A model generated the notes under the pieces. It was not told the DNA's origin, searched no databases, and saw only the letters and a program-made list of their open reading frames with translations. From NCBI RefSeq assembly GCF_947503385.1, contig NZ_CANNDO010000002.1:62001-126000 (forward strand): 64,000 nucleotides of DNA, given 5' to 3'. The first letter of the stretch is position 1, and each line of letters starts with the position of its first letter. A program made the position numbers and the translations under genes. This stretch comes from an uncultured Tateyamaria sp. GTDB lineage: Bacteria; Pseudomonadota; Alphaproteobacteria; Rhodobacterales; Rhodobacteraceae. Positions 46,324 through 52,789 of the stretch are shown piece by piece.

Positions 46324-46755
46324 ATGTTGCGCCACATCCTCTTTCTCATCGTAGCCCTGTCGCCGTTTCCGGCAGCAGCAGATGGCCTTCAACGCATTGC
46401 GTGCAGTTTCACCGTGGAATGCGTGGATACCGAGCCGTGCGGCGAAACCGATTACGAGATTTCCGCGGTTTATATGCCTGATCCGTCGGGAAAGAGATTT
46501 CGTGCGGCCAATCCGACCGAGACGCCGCCGGACGCGTTCACTGTCGAGGTGTCGGATGTGGCGGGCGATTTTAAGGCGGCGCCGATCACAGCGGGTGGAT
46601 TTGGCCATCCGATGACGGGTTTCGTGGCGTTCAACGCGCAGGCCACCCAGCGTTTGCTGACCATTGCAGAAGGCAAGGGCCGCTATTCGATCCACATGCG
46701 CGCGCAAGGTATGTCCTTGTATTACGAGGGCACCTGCGTGGAGGTAACGAACTGA
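46324..46755 (+). CDS. Secreted hypothetical protein inside the liv operon
   Basis: A 143-residue protein with a signal peptide (MLRHILFLIVALSPFPAAADG) and three Cys near the mature N-terminus (I-A-C-S-F-T-V-E-C-V-D-T-E-P-C-G-E-T) plus one near the C-terminus (G-T-C-V-E-V-T-N), so disulfides in the periplasm are likely. No domain is recognised. It lies between livF and livH with a 2-base gap and a TGATG overlap, so it is cotranscribed with the importer; similar small genes in liv operons of this group exist, but its role is unknown. Confidence 0.7.
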   Translation: MLRHILFLIVALSPFPAAADGLQRIACSFTVECVDTEPCGETDYEISAVYMPDPSGKRFRAANPTETPPDAFTVEVSDVAGDFKAAPITAGGFGHPMTGFVAFNAQATQRLLTIAEGKGRYSIHMRAQGMSLYYEGTCVEVTN

Positions 46756-49169: not shown

Positions 49170-50213
49170 ATGTCTGGCTACTTTTCGGAAATCGACTATT
49201 TCGGCACAGACGCGGATGAATTCATTGAAATCGCAGTGCCGACTGGCACGGATATATCCAGCTATTCCGTTCTGCTTTACGGCTCTACCGGCGAGGTCCT
49301 GTACACCTTTGGCCTGGGCGCTGTTCAAACCACGATCAACGGGCATGATGTCTATGTCATCGACGCCAGCAATCCGGCCTTCGACTCCGGCGGCGATGCG
49401 ACCGGGGTGATGTATCCAAACGATGCGCTGGCGCTTGTGGATGGCAGCAACACGGTGCTGCAATTCGTCTCTTGGAGCGGGAACACCCTTACGGCGACCC
49501 AAGGGGCCGCCAACGGGATGACCAGCACCAATGCAGGCAATGCAGAGGCGGCGAACCAGTCACTGCAAAGCGACGATGGCGGCAGCAGCTACTACGCCCA
49601 GACCTCGACGAACAAAGGGACAATTCCCGCCTGCTATGCGCGGGGTACGTTGATTGAAACGCCGCGCGGTGCCACGCGTATCGAATTTTTGCGACCGGGG
49701 GATCATGTTTGCACAGCCAACGGGGGTGCACAGGTGTTGCGGTGGGTCTGGACCCGAAAACAGATGTTTGCCAAAGGCGATGCAGCCCCGCCGATCTGCC
49801 TGCAAGCGGGATGCCTCGGGCCGGGCGTGCCCGCGCGCGATCTGGTCGTGTCTCGGCAGCACCGCATCGCCATCGGGGTGCAGGGACAGATCGACGTTGG
49901 CCCCCCTGCCCTTGCTCCGGCGCAGGCCTTGGTCGATCTGCCGGGTGTGCACGCAATGGCTGGCCGCCGTCAGATACAGTGGTGGCACCTGATCTGCGAC
50001 CGGCACTGTCTGATCCGTGCAAACGGCGTTCTGTCGGAAACGATGTTGCTGGGACCGCACGCATACCGCGCGTTCAGCCGTGCAGAACGCGCGTCACTGC
50101 GGCAGGCCATGGGCCGGTCGTTCATATTTGGAGCGATGGCACCGGCCCTGCCCTGTCCTTCGGTCCGCGTGGCGCGCGACCGGCTGTCCAAAGCGCCGCT
50201 CAACGCCCTTTGA
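49170..50213 (+). CDS. Hint-domain protein with lamin-tail-like N-terminus, paralogue 2
   Basis: A 347-residue protein. Residues 1-120 resemble a lamin-tail-type beta-sandwich ([32 protein letters not shown]...[20 protein letters not shown]), seen in bacterial extracellular nucleases. A Hint domain starts at C155 in [26 protein letters not shown], followed by [13 protein letters not shown] and [23 protein letters not shown]. It shares the Hint core with the protein at 9635-10711 but a different N-terminus. No signal peptide; surface export is inferred from the family. Its end overlaps the convergent HerA-like gene by 14 bases. Confidence 0.85.
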
Positions 50214-51744
50214 ACAGCCCTCCAAGCACGCCGCGCACGATGCGACGACCGGTGGTGCCCGTCAGTTCCTTGACCACCATCTTGGTCATGGCCTCGCCAA
50301 AACTGGCCCCGCGCCGCGTCGATTTCGAGGTTGATCGGGACACGCGCGCGCCCGAAAACCGTCGGGCCGCGTTGAATTCGCGCAGAACGGGCTGCATCTC
50401 TTCTGCTTTTTCCTCGGCCTCCGCCGCCTCTGTCGCGGCCTTGTCCGCTCGCGCCTTGAGGATTTCAAACGCCGATTTCCGGTCCAGCCGCTCGTCATAT
50501 TTTCCCGACATGTCGGACGCCGCCATGTGCGCGGTGCGCTCTGATTTGGTGATCGGCCCCAGTTGCGATGATGGCGGGCGGATCAAGGTTCGCTCCACGA
50601 TCCCCGGCACGCCCTTTTTCATCAACATGGACGTCACCGCCTCGCCCACGCCGACTTCGCGGATTGCCGCTTCGGTGTCGAAGCGGGGATTTTCGCGGTA
50701 GGTTTCGGCGGCAAGGCGCAATTCCTTGCGGTCCTTGGCCGTAAAGGCGCGCAGCGCGTGCTGGATGCGGTTGCCCAACTGACCAAGTATATCCTCGGGC
50801 ACATCCGCCGGGTTCTGGGTGATAAAGTAGACGCCGACACCCTTTGACCGGATCAGGCGCGCGACCTGTTCGACCTTATCCACCAGCGCCTTGGGCGCGT
50901 CATCAAAAAGCAGATGGGCCTCGTCAAAGAAGAAGACCAGCTTGGGTTTGTCCGGATCACCCACCTCGGGCAGTTCTTCAAAGAGTTCGGACAAAAGCCA
51001 CAACAGGAAGGTCGCATAAAGTTTGGGGGAGGCCATGAGTTTATCGGCGGCCAGAATGTTGACCATGCCGCGCCCGTCCGCGTCAGTGCGCATCAGGTCC
51101 GACAGCGCCAGCGCCGGTTCGCCAAACAGCCCCGCGCCGCCTTGGTTTTCCAGCACCAGCAGCCTGCGCTGGATCGCACCGATGGAAGCAGAGGACACGT
51201 TGCCATAGCGCAGCGATAGCGATTTGCCGTTCTCGCCAATCCACACAAGCAGCGCTTGGAGGTCCTTGAGATCAAGCAGCGGCAGCCCCTCTTCATCTGC
51301 AAGACGGAAAGCGATGTTCAAGATGCCTTCCTGCGCTTCGGTCAGATCAAGAAGGCGCGCCAGCAACAGCGGCCCCATCTCGGACACCGTTGTGCGCACC
51401 GGATGGCCCTGTTCGCCAAACAGGTCCCAAAACGTCACCGGACAGGCGTGATACGTGTAATCGTCAAAACCGATCTTTTGCGCACGATCCGTGAACGGAA
51501 CATGCAACTTGTGGGTTTCGGTGCCCGGTTTGGCGAGGCCGGACAGGTCGCCTTTGACGTCCGACAGGATCACCGGGACGCCTGCATTGGAAAATCCTTC
51601 GGCGAGGATCTGAAGCGTCACGGTTTTGCCGGTGCCGGTTGCACCTGCCACTAATCCGTGCCGGTTGGCGTACTTTAGCGTCAGTTCCTGACGCTGAGCG
51701 TAATCCACGCCCCCGCCGCCTATGAATAGCTTGTCGTTCATCAT
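50200..51744 (-). CDS. HerA-like ATPase (DUF853)
   Basis: A protein of about 514 residues. Walker A is [14 protein letters not shown] near residue 37 ([13 protein letters not shown]), and Walker B is [45 protein letters not shown] is the typical sensor region of DUF853/HerA-like helicases. The family couples ATP hydrolysis to DNA handling, but no NurA partner is nearby. Start is ATG 51744 (or the next ATG, 51741); codons up to 51786 are not family-like. C-terminal region is charged and coiled-coil-like ([17 protein letters not shown]). Confidence 0.88.
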
Positions 51745-51796
51745 GTTAACTCTTTGTCCATGCACGGTTTCGCGACGACCATACAAAGTTAACCTT

Positions 51797-51895
51797 TTGA
51801 CGCCATAGTGATCTTCGTTCCCGCCTACATGTCCTCCTGGCGCGGAACACTTCCTCCCTGTCAGACTGGCCGCGCCTTGTGCGCGGCCTTTTTTT
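51797..51895 (+). ncRNA. Candidate small RNA with anti-Shine-Dalgarno motifs and terminator
   Basis: Upstream is a TTGACG (-35-like, 51797-51802) but no clear -10. The RNA would carry GTCCTCCTGG (51831-51840) and CTTCCTCCCTGTC (51850-51862), both complementary to ribosome-binding sites. It ends in a perfect terminator: GGCCGCGC (51868-51875), loop CTTGT, GCGCGGCC (51881-51888), then seven T. A competing stem GGCGCGG (51839-51845) with CCGCGCC (51870-51876) would put the CTTCCTCCCT in its loop. The motif resembles the alpha-r8/mmgR and CcsR-type small RNAs as I remember them; that link is unverified. Confidence 0.6.
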
Positions 51896-51933
51896 ATTTG
51901 TGCGCCCGACGTTTACCGACACGATATTAGCGG

Positions 51934-52043
51934 TTGACCGACGACTCACGCTTTCGTAACGTCTGCCCCATAAGTCGGCCAGTCCGACGGGGAGAGAAGA
52001 AGACGTGGGAAAAGGGGGCCGTTTGGTTCCCTTTTTCTGTTTT
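51934..52043 (+). ncRNA. Candidate second small RNA, complementary to its neighbour
   Basis: A strong promoter-like pair TTGACC (51934-51939), 17 bases, TAACGT (51957-51962) predicts a start near 51969. A terminator hairpin follows: arms 52010-52020 and 52025-52035, eleven pairs including two G-T, GTTT loop, then TCTGTTTT. The predicted RNA is about 75 bases. Its purine-rich segment 51976-51999 is almost fully complementary to 51850-51872 of the preceding RNA (nine perfect pairs, then 13 with one G-T and one bulge after a single mismatch). It could alternatively be the 5' leader of ialB, 117 bases further on. Confidence 0.5.
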
Positions 52044-52159
52044 GGACAAGGCATTTATCTGCCAACCTGTGGGATCGTGAATTTCTTGACCGTTTCGCGC
52101 TGACATGGCCCGCGCGGCATGTTAGCTACGCTCGAAACGCAACACCTACAGGGAATATC

Positions 52160-52789
52160 ATGCGCACTTCACTGTTTGCTCTCAGCCTTGCCCTTTTGGT
52201 CCCGTTCGGGGCATGGGCACAGTCCACGGACACCGAAGCCGCAGACACGGACACCCAGACCGAAGAAACCCAACAGGGTGACACGGGAATCGAGGACCAG
52301 CTGAGCCTCGGCGAGCCGGCCAATACCGAACCGCAAGTGGGCCAAACCTATATTCAGGAAAAGAATGGCGACTGGGAAATGCGCTGCATCCGGACCGAGG
52401 ATGGCAACGATCCCTGTCAGATGTACCAGTTGATGACTGACAGCGAAGGCACACCGGTTGCGGAAATTTCGATCTTCCGCCTGCCCGAAGGTGGCCGCGC
52501 GGTTGCCGGGGCGACGATCATCGTGCCGCTGGAAACCTCGCTGCCGGAACAGCTGACCATGCGTGTGGACGCCGGTCAGGCGCGCCGCTATCCATTCGCC
52601 TTCTGCAACACGGTCGGGTGCTATTCCCGCGTGGGTCTGGTGCAGGAAGAGGTCAATTCCTTCCGCCGTGGCAATGCAGCGACCGTGACGATCGTGCCTG
52701 CGCTGGCGCCGGATCAGAAGGTTGAACTGAAGCTGTCGCTGTCGGGCTTTACCGCATCGTTCGAAAAGACTTCCGTCGCGCAACAATAA
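52160..52789 (+). CDS. Invasion-associated locus B (IalB) family protein
   Basis: A 209-residue secreted protein. Signal peptide MRTSLFALSLALLVPFGAWAQS is followed by an acidic Thr/Glu/Asp-rich linker (residues 22-50) and the IalB domain: GDWEMRCIRTEDGNDPCQMYQLMTD, VAEISIFRLPEGG, then PFAFCNTVGCYSRVGLVQEEVNSFRRGN. The paired Cys (C76/C84-type and C-N-T-V-G-C) are family features. IalB was named in Bartonella but is widespread in free-living Alphaproteobacteria; the role is probably periplasmic and not about invasion here. A terminator follows. Confidence 0.9.
   Translation: MRTSLFALSLALLVPFGAWAQSTDTEAADTDTQTEETQQGDTGIEDQLSLGEPANTEPQVGQTYIQEKNGDWEMRCIRTEDGNDPCQMYQLMTDSEGTPVAEISIFRLPEGGRAVAGATIIVPLETSLPEQLTMRVDAGQARRYPFAFCNTVGCYSRVGLVQEEVNSFRRGNAATVTIVPALAPDQKVELKLSLSGFTASFEKTSVAQQ

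Follow-up and report, generated by a model that had tools for sequence, protein, structure and literature searches.

The second of two adjacent candidate small RNA genes that we call RNA1 and RNA2, found in 64,000 nucleotides of DNA (the window) from an uncultured Tateyamaria sp., is best understood as encoding a sponge dedicated to small RNAs of the SorX/SorY/RNA1 family, which is comparable to CrfA of Caulobacter crescentus, is linked to one of its own targets and has been kept throughout the family Rhodobacteraceae. We put the probability of this reading at about 0.62. The computations support both genes (Table 1), the conservation of the RNA2 promoter and terminator, and a conserved complementarity of RNA2 to this family of sRNAs.

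Table 1. Features of the RNA1-RNA2 locus, in window coordinates
Feature	Position	Strand	Basis
HerA-like ATPase gene, divergent conserved neighbor	50200-51744	-	Pfam HerA_C PF05872, E 1.3e-225
RNA1, SorX/SorY/mmgR (alpha-r8)-type sRNA gene	51822-51895 (about)	+	Rfam SorX RF02784 match at 51822-51894
Anti-Shine-Dalgarno 10-mer of RNA1, CUUCCUCCCU	51850-51859	+	sequence
RNA1 site complementary to RNA2, cttcctccctgtcagactggccg	51850-51872	+	duplex with 51976-51999
RNA1 intrinsic terminator, GGCCGCGC/GCGCGGCC + T7	51868-51895	+	sequence
RNA2 promoter, TTGACC (51934-51939)-N17-TAACGT (51957-51962)	51934-51962	+	sequence
RNA2, candidate sponge sRNA gene	51969-52043 (about)	+	covariance model
RNA2 5' hairpin, GUCGG-CCAGU-CCGAC	51974-51988	+	five-pair consensus stem, 30 loci
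RNA2 site complementary to RNA1, cggccagtccgacggggagagaag (3' part of hairpin + GGGGAG)	51976-51999	+	
RNA2 intrinsic terminator, AAAAGGGGGCC-GTTT-GGTTCCCTTTT + T-rich tail	52010-52043	+	sequence
Separate ialB promoter, CTGACA-N17-TAGCTA	52100-52128	+	sequence pattern
ialB gene, conserved neighbor	52160-52789	+	Pfam IalB PF06776, E 9.7e-38

The two complementary sites form nine base pairs, an A.C mismatch and then 13 further pairs (one of them G-U) with a single bulge, at a computed -40.7 kcal/mol. An earlier note on this DNA had described this complementarity correctly to the base, and the RNA2 promoter and the two terminators that it listed are likewise present; its statement that the paired part coincides with the RNA1 10-mer and the 5' arm of the RNA1 terminator holds for the 10-mer, but of that arm no more than the initial five bases (GGCCG) are included. 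The 36-nt windows placed over RNA1 reach -43.8 with RNA2, as against a best value of -39.1 (mean -16.5, sd 4.0) among 21,299 others from both strands of the 64 kb, a background from which the 23 lying over RNA1 or the antisense of RNA2 itself were left out. In 128 of the 132 sampled loci with a clear pair, the pairing of RNA2 with its own RNA1 surpasses that of all 100 dinucleotide shuffles of RNA2. The best other pairing site in the window, on the minus strand at 46499-46540 (-39.1 kcal/mol), is possibly a target of RNA2 or a chance match.

Rfam searches of the window place RNA1 near SorX (45.7 bits, E 5.2e-10, just below the gathering threshold of 46.6), with a weaker match to SorY and one to mmgR (RF00519, alpha-r8) of 28.0 bits (E 8e-4) that does not reach the threshold of 41. 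Eighteen of 20 further RNA1 loci from other genomes match SorX with 26-35 bits, all below threshold, and two of these 18 also match mmgR; the other two of the 20 gave no match up to E 0.01. As RNA1 stays below the SorX threshold both here and in the further loci, it is, judged by its sequence, a distinct branch of the SorX/SorY/mmgR kind and not a strict member. RNA2 has no credible Rfam family in the window, its only match being a chance-level one to a terminator (E 5.6). At one of the 20 further loci (L184) sub-threshold Rfam matches extend over RNA2, the best being MH_s15 (26.1 bits, where the threshold is 123), in an alignment that rests mainly on the terminator hairpin.

RNA1 has in common with SorX (RF02784) and SorY (RF02651) of Rhodobacter sphaeroides a CUCCCUGU..GACU.GGCC core and a terminator, and differs from them in having GUCAGACUGG instead of GUUGGACUUGG and in its genomic site. 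The gene upstream of RNA1 is the divergent HerA-like ATPase, and SorX derives from the 3' UTR of an ompR-like gene according to the excerpts of PMC6238624, which also give takP mRNA as affected by SorY; repression of potA by SorX is stated in those of PMC9438474. With mmgR/suhB of the alpha-r8 group RNA1 shares an architecture of hairpin, C-rich 10-mer and terminator, and its 10-mer CUUCCUCCCU is identical in 9 of 10 positions to the alpha-r8 core UUUCCUCCCU as printed in PMC12559287 (in part). Membership of alpha-r8 is judged by the presence, in most species, of one copy beside the FGase gene; RNA1 does not lie beside that gene, and no 10-mer within one mismatch occurs in about 1.5 kb flanking 10 FGase loci (out of 12 FGase matches in four genomes). 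Among 30 aligned loci the RNA1 10-mer is nearly invariant, being lost in one (L032) and altered in another (L015), and the terminator forms an eight-pair consensus stem with both sides changed in one pair. At least two other copies, with the core CCUCCCUGUUGGACUU, are present in the genome of the window (C2:375005 and C1:41577), and both pass the SorX threshold; for such unnamed copies we use "SorX-like" and "SorY-like" as labels based on the core sequence. Between the start of the ATPase gene and RNA1, most of the 30 aligned loci also show a conserved block (51776-51812; CATACAA.NTTAACC...GCCATAGT), which may be the RNA1 promoter, the promoter of the divergent ATPase or a CtrA-like half-site, its TTAACC being what we take to be a candidate half-site of this type.

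A covariance model of RNA2, applied with strict filters to the family and to the class, recovers it in 243 of 295 family genomes (242 of the 294 sampled genera), as a single copy except in two genomes with two. At the level of the class 6 of 289 genomes match, four of which are members of the family and two of which are weak matches to the terminator only; with nothing convincing outside the family among these 289 genomes, we rejected a spread beyond it. From 175 RNA2 loci, 157 of them distinct, 156 were used for comparison after removal of one wrongly chosen stretch, a sample that leans to the better-scoring matches. The order divergent HerA-like ATPase, RNA2, ialB holds in all of the 30 loci fetched first, which are the best matches, and 29 of them have the RNA1 core between the ATPase and RNA2, the core being degenerate in the remaining one (L032). 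A scan of genome contigs returned at least 119 RNA2 loci; among the matches listed, ialB lies downstream in 101 of 104 with room for it, the ATPase upstream in 99 of 108 and RNA1 upstream in 97 of 114, and the recognizable ones among the 80 titled matches listed all come from the family or its order. The closest ATPase among the matches listed is 88.7% identical (Tateyamaria sp. syn59, L289). All 14 genomes without an RNA1-like match also lack RNA2 (Fisher 5.6e-12, relatedness ignored); this co-absence is only suggestive, and as some RNA1-like matches consist of the terminator only, the phyletic argument is weakened.

One of the genomes corresponds to R. sphaeroides 2.4.1, as its SorY match starts at 1,632,642, the SorY start given in the excerpts of PMC6238624. 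There RNA2 lies on the minus strand at C4:1426517-1426601 and RNA1 at 1426669-1426765, the order being catalase, RNA1, RNA2, ialB; on the far side of the catalase follows a LysR-type gene in divergent orientation. In this arrangement (L125, 4400-6400) RNA1 and RNA2 are found just downstream of the catalase gene, on the same strand as it, and not beside a HerA-like ATPase; RNA1 could here be a 3'-UTR product made together with the catalase.

Conservation within RNA2 is concentrated at its 5' end, where 17 of the 18 invariant alignment columns fall within the first 28 positions; the hairpin located there has both sides changed in one consensus pair over 30 loci. RNA2 fits SorX/SorY-type cores about as well as RNA1 across the sample: mean duplex energies for the 156 RNA2s are -38.8 with the RNA1 consensus, -39.0 with SorY and -39.2 with SorX, and -40.4 and -34.2 with the SorY-like and SorX-like copies from the genome of the window, as against -16 to -21 for shuffled targets. 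As expected of a CrfA-like sponge, RNA2 is thus complementary to a core that several sibling sRNAs have in common. Cofolding gains in R. sphaeroides are likewise similar (SorX -16.4, SorY -16.2, RNA1 -15.8); in the genome of the window RNA1 gains -21.7 against -17.6 for each of the two other copies, and this better partnership points to a bond with RNA1 that is tighter than a sponge of the whole family would require.

RNA1 can be recognized clearly within 420 nt upstream of RNA2 at 132 of the 156 loci, doubtfully at 5 and not at 19. The RNA2 site is kept at loci lacking a recognizable neighboring RNA1, although detection by the RNA2 model required it in any case. One of the 19 (L163) has an RNA1 match slightly farther off than 420 nt. 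The search for cores covered the genomes of the other 18, all of which contain SorX/SorY cores elsewhere, one to three each, with zero hits for a reversed-pattern control. A T-run follows within 45 nt after 28 of the 30 such cores that were fetched, and each of the 18 genomes contributes one or more of these 28. Remnants of RNA1 occur in three of the 18, namely about 2.2 kb away (G032), some 19 kb away (G239) and in degenerate form (G266). Three of the 18 also have two SorX/SorY-type cores in close tandem (G210:C3:381912 and 382065; G182:C35:29538 and 29742; G135:C1:142666 and 142786).

In the model that we favor, RNA1 would be an anti-Shine-Dalgarno sRNA that silences mRNAs through its C-rich core, which, by analogy with SorX, SorY and SisA, probably covers the ribosome-binding sites of its targets. 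The GGGGAG of RNA2 would mimic such a ribosome-binding site and dock on the CUCCC of the sRNA, whereupon the duplex would extend along the 5' hairpin of RNA2 as far as the foot of the sRNA terminator, over some 18-22 pairs. RNA2 would in this way tie up RNA1 together with its paralogues of the SorX/SorY type and perhaps also direct them to degradation, and production of RNA2 would raise the targets of RNA1, SorX and SorY. Transcription, binding in the cell, decay, a part for Hfq, the direction of regulation, an inducing signal and the order of pairing are all elements that we infer. GGGGAG is predicted to be unpaired in the RNA2 of the window (0.79-1.0); across the 156 RNA2s the mean unpaired probability of the GGGAG segment is 0.44, exceeding 0.5 in 50 of them, and in the consensus fold it is paired with a terminator arm. 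A start codon follows GGGGAG at 56 of 156 loci as compared with 34 after shuffling, which is some excess, and no conserved ORF was seen after it at these 156 loci.

Sponging is symmetrical in sequence, and this raises the alternative that RNA2 is itself a regulator of mRNAs, which either holds SorX, SorY and RNA1 in check as they do it, or is sponged by RNA1. Such an arrangement would be consistent with the fall of CrfA levels upon overexpression of SisA given in the excerpts of PMC12559287 and with the predicted unpaired probability of 0.91-1.0 for the hairpin loop of the window's RNA2. However, strong conservation in RNA2 falls on the very part that is complementary to the sRNA family, and we regard this alternative as unlikely.

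The genetic organization of RNA2 bears on a different proposal, in which it would be the leader of ialB and transcription would proceed past 52043 only when this leader is paired with an sRNA of the SorX type, in effect an attenuator of ialB controlled in trans. A promoter of the TTGAC-N18-TARC.T type, with one mismatch allowed per box, precedes RNA2 at 150 of the 156 loci (3 of 156 when the bases of each were shuffled once), and a terminator lies downstream of its core at 149 (1 of 156 after shuffling in the same manner). After that terminator 28 of 30 loci have CTGACA-N17-TA ahead of ialB, where about 0.4 would be expected after base shuffling. As its promoter and terminator are kept and ialB has a promoter of its own, RNA2 looks like an independent small gene and not merely a leader, and its status as a separate transcription unit appears well supported by these sequence patterns. 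The nearly constant presence of ialB downstream among the matches listed (101 of 104) would suit a leader, as would the 5'-UTR origin of UdsE, if this RNA is RNA2. UdsE of R. sphaeroides, formerly RSs2778, is recorded in the excerpts of PMC8625941 as 5'-UTR-derived, co-transcribed with its mRNA and visible on Northern blots; its number adjoins that of katE, RSP_2779 (PMC3413700, in part), beside which RNA1 and RNA2 of R. sphaeroides lie. It is plausible that UdsE is RNA2, its position before ialB being deduced from the gene number, and a search for RSP_2780 meant to settle the numbering found nothing. The 3' end of UdsE is listed as unknown (PMC8625941, in part), whereas RNA2 has a clear terminator. 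The promoter ahead of ialB, together with a pairing site that does not overlap the RNA2 terminator hairpin, makes control of ialB by attenuation improbable.

Across loci the pairing of RNA1 with RNA2 is conserved and not covarying. In the 92 gap-free rows of the 156-locus alignment all but one of the 18 positions are paired in 86-92 rows, and the remaining one is the A.C mismatch in 73 of the 92. The C at this position is unchanged in 143 RNA2 cores of standard length, possibly because it closes the hairpin of RNA2 itself and faces G in SorX/SorY cores. Two RNA2 positions facing U show A or G and no other base in all of these 143 cores, and a loop base expected to face U is C or T in eight of them. 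Cis covariation is essentially absent: swapping partners costs about 0.14 kcal/mol in an energy permutation (p 0.08; 0.05 with distinct combinations), and counting of cells gives 1555 paired against 1554.3 permuted, of 1656 (p 0.24). The alignment of relatives that the earlier note had proposed as a source of covarying pairs thus yields practically none, and covariation gives no support since the RNA1 and RNA2 cores are nearly invariant. An extra A in RNA2 is weakly associated with GACUUG in RNA1 (2 of 5 vs 4 of 128, Fisher 0.016), and changes in the RNA1 of two loci (L208, L225) are not matched by changes in RNA2. The near lack of cis covariation would be in keeping with the remains of an inverted duplication or a DNA element, neither RNA acting on the other, but mere remains would not have stayed complementary at 132 of the 156 loci sampled amid otherwise diverging sequence, and the RNA2 promoter and terminator are kept as well, which renders this origin very improbable.

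These observations modify the idea, put forward in the earlier note, of a self-contained switch made of two RNAs. The relation of RNA and sponge between neighboring sRNAs remains the best reading; a closed two-member circuit is less supported, as the two hardly covary, RNA2 fits SorX/SorY cores and it persists where no RNA1 is recognizable beside it, even though RNA1 is the better partner in its own genome. The same note knew of no described example at such a locus; for the idea of such a sponge CrfA offers a precedent: in the excerpts of PMC12559287 it sponges four alpha-r8 sRNAs, SisA-D, via their 10-mer. Like RNA2, CrfA carries a stretch, rich in G and A, that is complementary to the anti-Shine-Dalgarno 10-mer of an sRNA family with several copies; unlike RNA2, which pairs through its 5' hairpin and GGGGAG, it pairs via its second stem-loop. 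The siblings titrated by CrfA are encoded at scattered places, adjacency to a target not being mentioned in those excerpts, whereas RNA2 adjoins one of its targets.

In R. sphaeroides SorX and SorY give protection against singlet oxygen, and RNA2, if indeed a decoy, would be an off-switch for both. To our knowledge, sponging of alpha-r8-type sRNAs has so far been seen with one Caulobacter RNA, and a sponge function of RNA2 would mean that a second form of it occurs in a further large bacterial group. We consider the chances about even that RNA2 represents a new sponge sRNA spread family-wide in Rhodobacteraceae, a decoy gene that is vertically kept, is physically linked to one of the anti-Shine-Dalgarno sRNAs titrated by it, sets the activities of SorX, SorY and RNA1 together and so couples the regulation of stress, transport and growth in hundreds of genera.

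The excerpts of the literature searched contain no report of a sponge for SorX or SorY, and those examined mention no dedicated antagonist of either. By term counts no paper was found to join SorX/SorY/UdsE terms with CrfA/SisA terms, and a search for the RNA core sequences in print matched only papers on human cells. An sRNA acting on another sRNA is known from R. sphaeroides in StsR, which targets UpsM and affects SorY only slightly (PMC8307010, in part). StsR was rejected as a counterpart of RNA1 or RNA2, its published probe (PMC11354728, in part) matching C4:858073 and the RNA2/RNA1 pair lying near C4:1426600.

On contig C76 of genome G032 (1-60 and 2306-2383; L106 and L078) the distance between RNA1 and RNA2 is about 2.2 kb; the RNA1 core is GACUUGCC in this genome, and RNA2 has an extra A.
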